Position numbers and translations under genes: made by a program. Positions 55,382 to 59,954 of a stretch of 64,000 bases of DNA are shown piece after piece. Every line of letters begins with the position of its first letter. The first letter of the stretch is position 1. The DNA lies in contig NZ_AUAR01000003.1 of NCBI RefSeq assembly GCF_000428825.1, positions 62,001-126,000 of the forward strand, read 5' to 3'. Below the pieces are notes generated by a model. It saw only the letters and a program-made list of their open reading frames with translations. It did not search any database and was not told where the DNA came from. The DNA is from Desulfomicrobium escambiense DSM 10707 (GTDB lineage Bacteria > Desulfobacterota > Desulfovibrionia > Desulfovibrionales > Desulfomicrobiaceae).

Positions 55382-55459
55382 GTCCCCATCGTCTAGCTAG
55401 GTCCAGGACACCGGCCTTTCACGCCGATAACAGGGGTTCAAATCCCCTTGGGGACGCCA
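55382..55459 (+). tRNA. tRNA-Glu (anticodon UUC), second copy; island attachment site
   Basis: An exact copy of the tRNA at 55222-55299. Its last 44 bp (55416-55459, anticodon loop to CCA) recur at 59911-59954, the pattern left when a mobile element integrates into a tRNA 3' end and restores it. This gene is intact and should be functional. Confidence 0.96.
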
Positions 55460-55470
55460 CAAGAAAGCAA

Positions 55471-55505
55471 GGTCTTTCAGCGCACGCTGGAAGGCCTTTT
55501 TCTTT
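55471..55505 (+). terminator. terminator downstream of tRNA cluster (island side)
   Basis: A 12-bp stem GGTCTTTCAGCG / CGCTGGAAGGCC (two G-U pairs, no mismatch; apical loop just CA, so the top pairs probably open) is followed by TTTTTCTTT. It lies 11 nt after the last tRNA and would end the tRNA transcript despite the insertion. Confidence 0.8.
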
Positions 55506-55884
55506 GGCTCACATCGCAGCCACATTTTCCAAAAGTCGTCGTCGCTCGTTCCCGAAAATCCGCCAGAAGCCGTCTCGACACCGAAGCCGGACCAGGACGC
55601 CCCCCCCTTCCGGCCGGGCAAGAGCTATCGGTCTCCCTCACGGTTACGCAACAAAACCCTCCTCCCTCGTACAGCGCGGCCCTTTGGCCGGCACAGGCCT
55701 TACGCCACCTGCATTCTCCGCTCGACGCCAAGTCCCCCATGGCGTATGTAAGGAGATTCGTTTCGTTCCCGATGGTTCGCCCTGAAACTTGCCCACGAAA
55801 ATCAGGCAATCTCCGGGCGTCATGGCCACACCCAAACCATGCAGGCCGCTCTGGCGGCTTTGCCCAAAACAAAGCGAGGCAACC
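55506..55884. other. island leader region, no gene seen
   Basis: About 380 bp between the tRNA terminator and the PP-loop gene. I looked for a small precursor-peptide gene with a ribosome binding site on both strands and found none that is convincing. Minus-strand frames here run into the tRNA and are artefacts. The promoter of the downstream cassette must lie here, but no clear -35/-10 pair stands out. Confidence 0.4.
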
Positions 55885-57363
55885 GTGCACAACATGCCGA
55901 CACATCCCGTACTGCAACACCGATGGGCGGTGCGGGATGGCCGCGAGGGAAAGGCCCTTGTCTACTATGGGCTGCGCAATCCTCCCTATCATCACGAAAC
56001 GGTCTTGGTCGTGCCGGACGCTTTGGGCGACGCCCTGACAGGACTTGACGGTACAAAAACTCTGGACAGCCTACCGGGAATCGTGCGCGAGAGCGACGAA
56101 TTCCGCTACCTGCTCACGCAGGGGATCGTGGTGGATAAAACGGACCAGCGACAACCATCCACGGCCGAGCGCAAACGGGTCTGCACCCGCTGCGTAACCG
56201 ACGACCATCTCCTGCCAGGGCTGGAATTCGATGCCCGCGGCGTATGCGCCTTCTGCCAGTGCTATGAACAGGCCGAACGGGAAGGGGGGACCGCCGGACC
56301 TCGCAACGCGGTGGATGAGGAGACGTTGCTGTCCATCGCCGCCAAGAACAAGGACTCCCGTTTCGACGTCATGGTCCTTTGCACCGGAGGCAAGGATTCC
56401 ACCTATCTGCTCTGGTATCTGGCCAAAAAGCTTGGGCTGCGCGTTTTGGCCGCATCCTGGAACATGCCCTACACCAACGACACCTGCCGCAGAAACATCC
56501 GCCGCGCCCTTGAACTGCTGCCGGATGTCGAACTGGTGGAACGGACCCTGCCCGCAAACGCCATCCGTGACGCCATGCGCTCCCAGTTCGGCCACGTGGG
56601 GGTACCGTGCCTTTGCCCGACCGTGGCCCACATCCTCTTTTTCCCTCTTGCCGCCGAAGAACGGATTCCGATGGTCATGCAGGGCGTCGAAGAAGTCCAA
56701 CTGGCGGTCATGAGCTACGTCATGCGCAACCTGCAAAACGAAAACGGGCAGTCCAGTCCAACTCTGTCCATTCGCGAGCAGACCCTGCAGTTCCTGGAGA
56801 TGGTGGCAAACACTCCCGAACCAACCGCGCCTTTTTCCCTGACTGCGGATTTTCTCCACTATCAGCGCGCTATCCGAAACAGCCTCGGCTCGATTTACGC
56901 TCCCCTTGATCGCCTGCTCACGCGGGCCCGGCAGGACGAATCCGCTTTTGTGCCGCAATTCCTCCGTTTAAAGACAAATGCACTGTATGGTTCATGGAGC
57001 GAGGTGGCCGCGCTCATGCACAAGGAAATGGACTGGGAAATGCCTCCGGGACAGAAAGGATTGCTGCATACCAGCTGCCGCATCGAAAAAGTCAAGGACT
57101 ATTGCCAATTCATGCGTTTTCAGAACATGCGCACCACCTCGTTCCCGCAATCCATCGTGGAAGTTGGCGCAGGGGTCTATTTCGGCCTGCTCTCCCGCGA
57201 GGAGGCGCTGGGCGAGTTAAAGGAACTCGGCTACTGTCGTGAACCCCAGGTGATGACCGAACTGCTCGATGATCTGGGCATGACCGATGACGATCGTCAC
57301 AATCATGGGGAAACCGTTTTCTCCCTCTGCAACTGCGTAGCGGGCCTTCGGAGTAAAGTATGA
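55885..57363 (+). CDS. PP-loop ATPase, N-acetyl sugar amidotransferase-like (WbpG/PseA-type)
   Basis: A 492-residue protein. The GTG at 55885 with GAGG 5 nt upstream is the likely start (an ATG at 55894 is alternative). From about residue 100 it has the amidotransferase signature CTRCVTDDHLLPGLEFDARG VCAFCQCY, with a four-cysteine knuckle. The PP-loop MVLCTGGKDSTYLLWYLAKK LGLRVL follows, which binds ATP and adenylates a substrate. WbpG/PseA relatives install an amidine on surface sugars, but those lack the ~95-residue N-domain here (ALTGLDGTKTLDSLPGIVRE, LLTQGIVVDKTD), which resembles PqqD-like winged helices. The stop overlaps the ThiF gene by 4 bp. The substrate is unknown. Confidence 0.75.
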   Translation: MHNMPTHPVLQHRWAVRDGREGKALVYYGLRNPPYHHETVLVVPDALGDALTGLDGTKTLDSLPGIVRESDEFRYLLTQGIVVDKTDQRQPSTAERKRVCTRCVTDDHLLPGLEFDARGVCAFCQCYEQAEREGGTAGPRNAVDEETLLSIAAKNKDSRFDVMVLCTGGKDSTYLLWYLAKKLGLRVLAASWNMPYTNDTCRRNIRRALELLPDVELVERTLPANAIRDAMRSQFGHVGVPCLCPTVAHILFFPLAAEERIPMVMQGVEEVQLAVMSYVMRNLQNENGQSSPTLSIREQTLQFLEMVANTPEPTAPFSLTADFLHYQRAIRNSLGSIYAPLDRLLTRARQDESAFVPQFLRLKTNALYGSWSEVAALMHKEMDWEMPPGQKGLLHTSCRIEKVKDYCQFMRFQNMRTTSFPQSIVEVGAGVYFGLLSREEALGELKELGYCREPQVMTELLDDLGMTDDDRHNHGETVFSLCNCVAGLRSKV

Positions 57364-58163
57364 CCGCGGAATTTTTAAACCGGGCCGAACCCATTTTTAC
57401 CGAGGCGGGCTTGGAAATCCTGCGGAACAAAGTTGTCGCCATCGCCGGCCTGGGCGGCGTGGGGGGCGGCGCATTCCTGGCGCTGGTCCGCTGCGGGGTG
57501 ACCCGCTTCAGGTTGGCGGAAAACGGCGTGTTCGACCCGCCGGACATGAATCGACAGGCCGGAGCCTTTGGCCAGACCCTCGGATGTTTCAAGCTCGATG
57601 TGTACGTGGAGCTGGCCCGATCCATCAACCCCAGCCTGGAACTGGAATGCTTTCCGGAAGGAATCACCGGAGGCAACCTCGACACATTCCTGGCCGGCGC
57701 CGACGTGTATGTCGGCGTCATCGACGTGGAAAAAGGCTCTGACGTCAAGGCGATGACCCCGCCTCTGCTGCACAAGCACGGTCTGCCCATGTTTACTTGC
57801 GGGGCCATCGGCTTTGGCGCGCTGCTGGTAGGCCACGAGCCGGGCGGCATGATGCCGGAAACCTTCTGGCAGCTCGTACAGGAACAGTCCAACGGCAGCC
57901 AGGGTTTGCTGCCGCCTTTTTTGGGACGCCTGTTCAACCGTTCGGTCATGGATCGCATCGCCGAGGGCAACGCGTCCGGCATTGTCCCCACAACGGCCAT
58001 CGGAGGATTGGCGGCGAACACCCTGCTGGCCTGCGAGGTCCTCGTCTGTCTGCTGCGGGGAACCGGCCTTGTAGACCGCGAACCGGTGTTTGCCCCGCAG
58101 TTTACCATGGTGGATTTCCTCAACCAAAAACTGGTCGTGGGCGATGTGCGGCCAGGAGCATGA
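57360..58163 (+). CDS. ThiF/MoeB/E1-like adenylyltransferase
   Basis: A 267-residue soluble protein of the ThiF superfamily. The nucleotide loop VVAIAGLGGVGGGAFLALVR CGV and the downstream NRQ motif in DPPDMNRQAGAFGQTLG supply the ATP-binding and adenylation residues of E1-like enzymes. The zinc-binding CxxC pairs of MoeB/ThiF and an obvious catalytic cysteine loop are absent, placing it in a divergent branch. Its ATG overlaps the PP-loop stop (ATGA), so the two enzymes are co-translated and probably act in one pathway, perhaps activating a carboxylate or carrier-protein C-terminus. No small carrier protein is encoded nearby. Confidence 0.82.
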   Translation: MTAEFLNRAEPIFTEAGLEILRNKVVAIAGLGGVGGGAFLALVRCGVTRFRLAENGVFDPPDMNRQAGAFGQTLGCFKLDVYVELARSINPSLELECFPEGITGGNLDTFLAGADVYVGVIDVEKGSDVKAMTPPLLHKHGLPMFTCGAIGFGALLVGHEPGGMMPETFWQLVQEQSNGSQGLLPPFLGRLFNRSVMDRIAEGNASGIVPTTAIGGLAANTLLACEVLVCLLRGTGLVDREPVFAPQFTMVDFLNQKLVVGDVRPGA

Positions 58164-58220
58164 CGCCGGCACCTTCTCGTGCCGGGACAACGGATTCCGC
58201 TGGGAGCCAAGGAGGTGCAT

Positions 58221-59258
58221 GTGGGTCGCGAGGAGCTGATCCGAAATCTGCGCGAGTCGCACCGGATGATCGAACCCGGCCAGGACGTCACGATAGATTT
58301 TTTCCGTCCCGAGGACGCCCAGGGAGTGGCGCTGGCGTACTATGACACATATGGCGACACATTTCCGCTGGAACATGTCTACAACCCCGAGGAAATCACC
58401 CGCCGTAACGCCACGGACGACCACCACACCGTGGTCGCCCGGACACCGCGAGGAGAGATTGTCGGGCTGTTCGGGATATTTCGCCACGCCCCGAATCCCG
58501 GCGTATACGAAGCCGGGCAGCTTATGGTGCTGAAAAGTTATCGCAATAGGCACATCAGCACGCAATTCAACGCAATGGCCCTCGACACCCTGCCCAGGAA
58601 GCTGCGAATACCCGTGATCTTCCTGGAGGCAGTGAGCAACCATGTGATCTCCCAACGTTTCGCCCAAGACAGGGGCTTGGTGTTCACCGGACTCGAAGTA
58701 GAATGCCTGCCGGCCAAGGCCAACGGCGCATCGCGGAACATCTCGCTTTTCCCGATGTTCAAGGCGTTTGAAAACGCCGCCTGCGAGACGCACCTACCCG
58801 AAGCATACCACGCGTTGTGCACGGCATTGTATGCGGAGTTGGGCCTCCCCCGCACATTCGCGCCGTCGGTGGCTCTTGCGGGAGCCACGCTGGCGACTCC
58901 TTTTTGTCTCCCGGAGAGCGGCTTGCTGCGCCTGACGGTAACCCGGGCCGGCAGTGATTTTGACGAAGCCGTTCGCGCAGCAGAGGCCATCATCGATCCT
59001 CGCGGCGTGGTCCAGATCTTCGTGAACCTTGGCGACGCAGCCGCTCCCCAGGCTGTGAACGTTCTGCGACGTCGGGGGTATTTCCTTGGCGGACTGCTGC
59101 CGTACTGGTTCGGCTCAGACGGCCTGATCATGCAGAAAATCGGACAGGAACCTGACTGGGATACCATCCAATGCGCTGACCGCAACGCCACCGCCATGCG
59201 CGACATGGTCCGCAAGGATTACGAACGCGCTCAATGCCGGTGCCCCAGACAGGCCTGA
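58221..59258 (+). CDS. GNAT-like acyltransferase
   Basis: A 345-residue protein. GGAGG with a 5-nt gap supports the GTG at 58221 over the longer frame from 58179. The N-terminal half reads like an acetyltransferase (DVTIDFFRPEDAQGVALAYY, HHTVVARTPRGEIVGLFGIF, EAGQLMVLKSYRNRHISTQF). LMVLKSYRNRHI corresponds to the acetyl-CoA-binding strand/loop of the GNAT fold. The C-terminal half (about 200-345, GSDFDEAVRAAEAIIDPRGV, RRRGYFLGGLLPYWFGSDGL) may be a second degenerate GNAT-like domain. It lies 57 bp after the ThiF gene and probably completes the three-gene cassette. The substrate is unknown. Confidence 0.65.
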   Translation: MGREELIRNLRESHRMIEPGQDVTIDFFRPEDAQGVALAYYDTYGDTFPLEHVYNPEEITRRNATDDHHTVVARTPRGEIVGLFGIFRHAPNPGVYEAGQLMVLKSYRNRHISTQFNAMALDTLPRKLRIPVIFLEAVSNHVISQRFAQDRGLVFTGLEVECLPAKANGASRNISLFPMFKAFENAACETHLPEAYHALCTALYAELGLPRTFAPSVALAGATLATPFCLPESGLLRLTVTRAGSDFDEAVRAAEAIIDPRGVVQIFVNLGDAAAPQAVNVLRRRGYFLGGLLPYWFGSDGLIMQKIGQEPDWDTIQCADRNATAMRDMVRKDYERAQCRCPRQA

Positions 59259-59321
59259 CCTACGGATAGGCAAGAGTTTGTGAATCATCCATCCTTCCAT
59301 CACTGCAGGGAGAGATTCCAG

Positions 59322-59720
59322 ATGAAACGATTCGTCCTGATCACAGCGTTGTTTGCGTTCAGCCTGCTCGGGACTCATACTCCGGCTGGCGCGACAGGGA
59401 ATTTCAACCAGTTCATCGGATTTGGCGACAGCACACTGGACAGCGGGTATTTCCGGTATGCTTCATCGGGCAATCCGGCCGTGGATGCAGCACTTCTCTC
59501 CGCCATTGCGGCAGGAGCCCAGGGCGGATTCGCCGGGCCAGGGGTGATGACCTCCACCATGTTGGCCGGACGGTTTGGCTTGGACGCGGAGCCAATCAGC
59601 GCCGGTGGGAGCAATTACGCCAACGGGGCCACCTATACGGCGCCCCTGCGCTCCTCCGAAGGCGTCGCGTATGCTTCCGGCAGAATGTCAATTTTTGAAG
59701 ACATCCCTCTTTGCCATTGA
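59322..59720 (+). pseudogene. truncated SGNH/GDSL esterase (autotransporter-type N-terminus)
   Basis: A signal peptide (MKRFVLITALFAFSLLGTHT, Ala-rich cleavage site) is followed by FNQFIGFGDSTLDSGYFRYA, where FGDS is block I of the SGNH/GDSL hydrolase family with its nucleophile serine. A later SAGGSNYANGATY recalls block II/III. Full-length outer-membrane esterases of this type run to 400-650 residues with a C-terminal beta-barrel. Here the frame stops after 132 residues, without the catalytic Asp/His block V or barrel. The 3' part was presumably lost at the island's right border. Confidence 0.7.
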
Positions 59721-59910
59721 ACGAGAGTAGAGCGTTCCTGGGCTCTTCGCCGTTCAAAAAGGATCCCCTGGCGAACAGCAAAAAAACGGCTTTCAAGTCC
59801 ACACAAAAACCACACGTCCACAGGACTTTGGGGCGTTTTAGGACTCAAGGGTTTTTATTTTTTCAAAGTATTTGAAAGGATTATGAGAATCTGTTTCATC
59901 GGCTTGGCTT

Positions 59911-59954
59911 CTTTCACGCCGATAACAGGGGTTCAAATCCCCTTGGGGACGCCA
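59911..59954 (+). repeat. 44-bp direct repeat of tRNA-Glu 3' end (right attachment site)
   Basis: Identical to 55416-55459 (and 55256-55299), from CTTTCACGCC in the anticodon loop to the CCA end. There is no tRNA 5' half in front of it, so it is not a gene. It marks the right border of the island. Confidence 0.9.

Follow-up and report, generated by a model that had tools for sequence, protein, structure and literature searches.

What is activated, and for what product, by three adjacent genes encoding a PP-loop ATPase, an E1/ThiF-like adenylyltransferase and a GNAT-fold protein in Desulfomicrobium escambiense DSM 10707? The genes lie in a 64,000-nucleotide stretch of contig NZ_AUAR01000003.1 (positions 62,001 to 126,000, forward strand), hereafter the window. 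An earlier interpretation drawn from the DNA and its open reading frames (ORFs), the sequence-only reading, had proposed an undescribed modification cassette acting in a ribosomal-peptide, thio/amidine or surface-sugar system, and the literature searched indeed gave no account of the trio or of its wider locus. Comparison of 22 distinct loci carrying the PP-loop gene (20 for small ORFs and 12 for co-variation) showed that the trio is conserved and co-inherited beyond chance. Its role may well be to activate carboxyl or amide groups, as one module of a small-metabolite pathway under partner-switch control, an assignment that is advanced here with some reserve.

Conservation and predicted functions of the trio

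All three ORFs were intact, and the E1 start codon overlaps the PP-loop stop codon (ATGA), which upheld the trio as a genuine set of genes; we infer that they share a single transcript. A perfect AAGGAGG Shine-Dalgarno sequence at 58209-58215 lies five bases ahead of GTG 58221, and the GNAT homologues begin with the residues MGREEL. This GTG is therefore the likelier start of the GNAT gene, rather than position 58179.

Orthologous trios, with PP-loop and E1 proteins 72-83% identical to those of the window, were present in members of the same order (G115, G088, G073, G081, G148, S. alcoholivorans and Desulfovibrio sp. UBA4079), where the flanking genes were unlike those of the window; synteny of the trio was also seen in G631. 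Protein distances of the three gene products co-varied over the 12 loci (Mantel r 0.965-0.98), and dN/dS values of 0.15-0.29 against three or four relatives place the trio under purifying selection, also with respect to distant orthologues. The E1 and PP-loop genes shared one gene run in 19 of the 22 loci (the exceptions being L044, L079 and L080; in L078 the E1 gene is cut off by the contig end), and a GNAT-family protein, separate or fused, was encoded in at least 18. Taken together, the co-varying distances, the low dN/dS and the pairing of E1 with the PP-loop gene show conservation and co-inheritance beyond chance. Homologues of the PP-loop protein are rare: they occur in 2 of the 395 genomes sampled from the phylum and in 12 of 247 from the order, with outlying examples in Lentisphaerae and UBP16 assemblies. 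In two genomes of one genus, a conserved 107-residue secreted protein is encoded directly after the trio GNAT (L040 11057-11380 and L021 5188-5511).

The PP-loop protein gave no Pfam match. Its AlphaFold2 model (pLDDT 86.9, built with 20 homologues) found its best PDB fold match by Foldseek in the Legionella N-acetyl sugar amidotransferase (NASAT) 8wex (E 6e-10, TM 0.46/0.57), followed by TtuA, NcsA, LarE, YcfA and the nitrile synthetase ArtA. NASATs are defined by a PP-loop and a CXXC..[GN]XCXXC tetracysteine (PMC10607449), and both were recognized here, as TGGKDS and as C100xxC103..GVC121xxC124, the latter being the invariant Cys4 knuckle that the sequence-only reading had picked out. The protein thus shares the PP-loop Rossmann domain and tetracysteine of WbpG, WbuX and the Legionella enzyme (LpNASAT). 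It differs in its N-domain and in three further invariant cysteines, C242, C244 and C398, that are absent from two canonical NASAT-like proteins, and its score against TIGR03573 (WbuX; NCBIfam) was 90.3 bits, below the curated cut-off of 203 bits. By these motifs and scores, the protein appears to be NASAT-like but outside the curated family. Its cysteine-rich C-terminal tail was considered as an in-cis core peptide and rejected, being confined to the close clade and missing from divergent homologues.

The extra N-domain of ∼95 residues was confirmed, and across the 247 genomes of the order it was encoded only within PP-loop proteins, never as a stand-alone protein. Modelled alone (pLDDT 84.4), it comprised three strands, a short strand, helices and a last strand. 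The top Foldseek match was the recognition element (RRE) for ribosomally synthesized and post-translationally modified peptides (RiPPs) of PbtF (8t19; E 0.042, probability 0.93), followed by the RREs of SuiB, ThcOx, MccB and lasso B1 proteins. In VIA, PqqD (Z 6.3), TruD (6.4), TigE (6.5) and MccB were matched, as were NovN (7.2), Rv2067c (6.7), GdmN (6.5) and NO66 (5.3); every match fell below Z 8, and NovN, GdmN and NO66 are non-RiPP enzymes. HHalign against 25 PqqD sequences was in register but weak (E 0.0036, 9% probability, compared with a best of 4% in 40 column shuffles and with the threshold of at least 90% in RRE-Finder-style profile searches). The sole Pfam or PDB profile match was a weak one to PaaA-like_N in 1 of 20 PP-loop proteins (E 0.11). 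The “DG” motif was common among the homologues but not invariant, and YYGxRN were the most conserved residues. Of the RRE/PqqD likeness proposed earlier, the predicted fold stood, whereas at the sequence level the profiles support it weakly.

The E1-like protein contains a ThiF domain (PF00899, E 4e-19) with invariant adenylation residues (GxGGVG, D59-P-x-D-M-N-R-Q, K78 and D122), which places it in the E1/ThiF superfamily, with TcdA and ThiF as its nearest PDB relatives. It scored below the curated cut-off for every NCBIfam equivalog and is therefore not a ThiF, MoeB or TcdA proper. Although it shares the nucleotide loop, the D-x-NRQ motif and the adenylation-site Lys and Asp with these enzymes, it has no ThiS, MoaD or ubiquitin-like partner gene; it also lacks zinc-type CxxC pairs, as the sequence-only reading had noted, and no cysteine is invariant among its homologues. 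The protein is likely to act as an adenylating enzyme, and nothing points to thioester transfer. A defence function was rejected, PADLOC having yielded just weak E1-domain matches to E1-E2 systems.

The third protein matched Acetyltransf_1 (PF00583) at 25.7 bits against a cut-off of 20.7. Its family includes 500-residue proteins with an N-terminal RsbW-like HATPase_c_2 domain (E 5e-23 in L083), and HHalign matched the window GNAT to the C-terminal part of a 430-residue HATPase-GNAT protein (97%, 242 columns). The HATPase-fused relatives have a canonical coenzyme A (CoA) loop; free HATPases, like some of the fused proteins, retain the N-box Asn. A HATPase-GNAT gene was found in 8 of 8 trio-type genomes compared with 22 of 63 others (nominal p ∼5e-4, kinship ignored). 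An internal duplication of the GNAT-like protein found no support in HHalign. In the near-complete genome G073, the trio GNAT is frameshifted (L022 6061-7124).

Loci of relatives and the proposed pathway

Elsewhere the trio is part of a larger locus type with sensor, phosphatase, STAS, HATPase-GNAT, HisC and efflux genes. The small, contiguous locus L084 encodes, in an unbroken run, an NMT1 periplasmic protein, a Cache-HAMP-SpoIIE-HATPase protein, a HATPase-GNAT, a HisC-like aminotransferase and then the PP-loop, E1 and GNAT proteins. In the Desulfobacterota loci L074-L077, the trio genes accompany a DHA2-type efflux protein of the major facilitator superfamily (MFS) and a xanthine-dehydrogenase-like trio (Mo-hydroxylase), with NMT1, SpoIIE and STAS genes additionally in L075; divergent PP-loop loci bring carboxyltransferase, biotin carboxylase and AMP-ligase genes. 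The partner-switching set of SpoIIE phosphatase, STAS and HATPase genes was present in L084, L082, L075 and contig C1 of the window genome itself (G000). The sensor, STAS, HATPase, HATPase-GNAT (37% identity) and HisC (62%) genes on C1 belong to a second cluster (L085 11708-17499, L070 1-9669), which encodes HisC, HATPase-GNAT, HATPase, STAS, SpoIIE and NMT1 proteins and, further, a xanthine-dehydrogenase-like trio, an AMP-ligase, an acyl carrier protein, a GNAT and an MFS protein. As in RsbU/RsbV/RsbW modules, a Cache-HAMP-SpoIIE phosphatase, a STAS protein and an HATPase_c_2 kinase occur together in the relatives' loci; in contrast, the output is apparently a HATPase-GNAT/acyltransferase pathway, an NMT1 protein is present and no sigma factor was seen.

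Loci with only a GNAT relative contained other activation modules, namely an AMP-ligase with a carrier (contig C1) or fusions of 1330-1350 residues in which AMP-ligase and GNAT parts are joined to an aromatic-amino-acid ammonia-lyase and which neighbour other GNATs (Table 1). An 810-residue fusion of HATPase-GNAT and HisC-like aminotransferase adjoins an E1 and a GNAT gene in L026 (8948-11380), and a TadA-like deaminase gene lies within HATPase-GNAT/HisC/GNAT loci (L068 7628-8158 and L071 8682-9173).

The small-metabolite pathway is proposed because acid or amide activation, transamination and oxidation recur as themes of these loci, together with acyl transfer, export and sensing in the periplasm. 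In the proposed scheme, the E1-like protein would adenylate a substrate carboxylate, and the PP-loop enzyme would adenylate an amide or carboxyl oxygen and exchange it for nitrogen (amidine or amide) or sulfur, the two acting as one exchangeable activation module. The RRE-like domain may grip a peptide-like substrate or the tail of a partner, and the GNAT-like protein would transfer an acyl group. The SpoIIE/STAS/HATPase switch would sense a periplasmic ligand and, through binding to the HATPase-derived domain in HATPase-GNAT, would gate production.

Several observations weigh against this scheme. The window trio is not adjacent to sensor genes, G031 has the PP-loop gene alone, and no product, substrate or carrier was identified in the loci examined. 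The CoA loop of the window GNAT is degenerate (YRNRHIS), without the R-x-x-G-x-G/A pattern, so that its acyl donor, and even catalysis, is uncertain. The N-box Asn is lost from the 430-residue HATPase-GNAT proteins, which suggests a pseudo-HATPase domain; both this domain and the trio GNAT could thus be non-catalytic. Kinship inflates the co-occurrence of the trio with HATPase-GNAT, and partner switching of an acyltransferase is something that we infer.

A wider generalization is possible but doubtful: the loci could form a new sensor-gated class in which an NMT1/Cache-SpoIIE switch acts through the pseudo-HATPase-GNAT on a pathway with an interchangeable activation module (RRE-PP-loop plus E1, AMP-ligase plus carrier, or the AMP-ligase-GNAT-ammonia-lyase fusions). 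Such a system might produce a diffusible signal of its own and also respond to it.

An acquired island at a tRNA-Glu gene

The trio lies on an acquired genomic island at an insertion hot spot, as concluded from the tRNA-Glu 3′ end repeated at each border, the empty sites in relatives, the other cargo found there and the absence of the PP-loop gene from all 15 congeners. In congeners G014 and G009, the tRNA-Glu gene runs directly into the cytochrome-bd-like genes that in the window follow the right repeat and a terminator. Four others (G007, G010, G013 and G015) carry different cargo, unrelated and sensor-like, at the same site. No integrase was found among the ORFs of 55460-59954. A phage or plasmid origin was rejected, tblastn having given no match in phages or plasmids, and viral contigs having yielded none either. 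Neither the island borders nor the wider locus had been recognized in the sequence-only reading.

Table 1. Positions of the trio, its motifs and the surrounding island in the window, and of related fusions in other loci
Feature	Position	Strand	Remarks
PP-loop ATPase with RRE-like N-domain	55885..57363	+	492 aa, GTG start; alternative ATG 55894
N-domain, residues 1-95, predicted RRE/PqqD-type winged helix	55885..56169	+	AF2, Foldseek, VIA
Tetracysteine C100/C103/C121/C124, zinc-knuckle type	56182..56256	+	invariant in 20/20 homologues
PP-loop TGGKDS, residues 167-172	56383..56400	+	invariant in 20/20 homologues
C242-x-C244, family-specific cysteines	56608..56616	+	invariant in 20/20 homologues
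C398, third family-specific cysteine	57076..57078	+	invariant in 20/20 homologues
E1/ThiF-like adenylyltransferase	57360..58163	+	267 aa
GNAT-fold protein with C-terminal extension	58221..59258	+	345 aa; ORF opens 58179
tRNA-Glu(TTC), insertion target	55382..55459	+	ARAGORN
Left direct repeat, last 44 bases of tRNA-Glu	55416..55459	+	direct-repeat comparison
Right direct repeat, perfect 44-bp copy of the left one	59911..59954	+	direct-repeat comparison
Genomic island with trio, 4.5 kb	55460..59954		44-bp repeats, empty sites in relatives
Secreted GDSL/autotransporter-like ORF, truncated; remnant of island cargo	59280..59720	+	146 aa; ORF list; no Pfam match
AMP-ligase/GNAT/ammonia-lyase fusions	L065 6000-10034, L066 6533-10585, L067 8081-12091, L069 7959-11945

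Alternative readings and significance

In a RiPP pathway with an unlinked precursor, the leader would be gripped by the N-domain; a backbone or terminal amidine, amide, nitrile or thioamide would come from the PP-loop enzyme, carboxylate activation from the E1-like protein and acylation of the product from the GNAT. Such a pathway is unlikely. The N-domain matches to the RREs of PbtF, MccB, TbiB1, TruD, SuiB, TigE and PqqD, with the weak but in-register PqqD alignment and the single PaaA-like_N match, speak for it, and AS-like PP-loop enzymes are known to place C-terminal nitriles or amides on RiPPs (PMC13060819). The fold, however, also occurs in NovN, GdmN and NO66, and YYGxRN looks structural or catalytic rather than leader-binding. 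MccB, PaaA, PbtF and TruD likewise bear such a domain on an ATP-activating enzyme, but there it sits on the E1 or YcaO protein; in the trio it is on the PP-loop protein, the E1-like protein being the partner. Comparison of all small ORFs of the 20 loci revealed none shared across genera, although an unlinked precursor is possible; strong matches arose only between genomes of one genus, where the ORFs differed in position or lay in alignable DNA. Neither a carrier nor a conserved small ORF was found near the window trio, in agreement with the sequence-only reading, the L084 operon leaves no space for a precursor ORF, and the HisC, Mo-hydroxylase, carboxylase and NMT1 sensor neighbours are un-RiPP-like. 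The ribosomal-peptide suggestion, taken in its usual sense, was consequently not borne out.

It is improbable that the PP-loop enzyme inserts sulfur in the manner of TtuA, LarE or YcfA, with C242, C244 and C398 providing an Fe-S site or a sulfur that is sacrificed and the E1-like protein making a thiocarboxylate or activated donor. These cysteines are invariant and missing from the two canonical NASAT-like proteins, and C242 lies ∼75 residues past the PP-loop, a spacing like that of the first cluster cysteine of TtuA. TtuA, NcsA, LarE and YcfA ranked next in Foldseek, and E1 with PP-loop pairing follows thiolation logic. Against this, the motif is CxC and not CxxC, no sulfur carrier or desulfurase was present in the loci, and NASAT was clearly the better fold match.

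That the island trio is an eroding, functionless remnant, separated from the sensor and HisC genes and lying beside a truncated autotransporter gene, seems hardly more than a slim prospect. The truncated GDSL-like ORF, the location of the sensor module on another contig and the frameshifted G073 gene would fit such decay, but the three ORFs are intact, dN/dS against distant orthologues is low, and the genome also contains the partner module (37-62% identity). Surface-sugar amidination like that of WbpG/WbuX/LegG, a suggestion of the sequence-only reading, is very improbable: NASATs are the closest PDB and NCBIfam relatives, but the TIGR03573 score is less than half the cut-off, the protein bears an extra N-domain and extra cysteines, and no HisH/HisF partner, polysaccharide, lipopolysaccharide or nonulosonate sugar gene, nor any legionaminic/pseudaminic acid locus, was found among the 22 loci.

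In the preferred reading, an activation module in a switch-controlled small-metabolite pathway, the PP-loop protein would activate a carboxylate or amide much as the ATP-dependent nitrile/amide synthetases QueC, ArtA and PesC do, ArtA being among its Foldseek matches; their accessory domains are unlike those of the PP-loop protein. The parts of the trio are known folds, and their combination seems new as far as the literature searched shows: this literature, which was thin on subscription journals, described no RRE-like/PP-loop fusion, pairing with a cysteine-free E1 or coupling to SpoIIE/STAS/HATPase genes. RRE-type domains have led to new peptide chemistries, and an ATP-dependent modification of a new kind is suggested by such a domain on a putative amide-activating PP-loop enzyme that is paired with a cysteine-free E1. 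If the proposed scheme is correct, acyltransferase-type proteins under partner-switch control would stand out as an unusual output of this kind of signalling.

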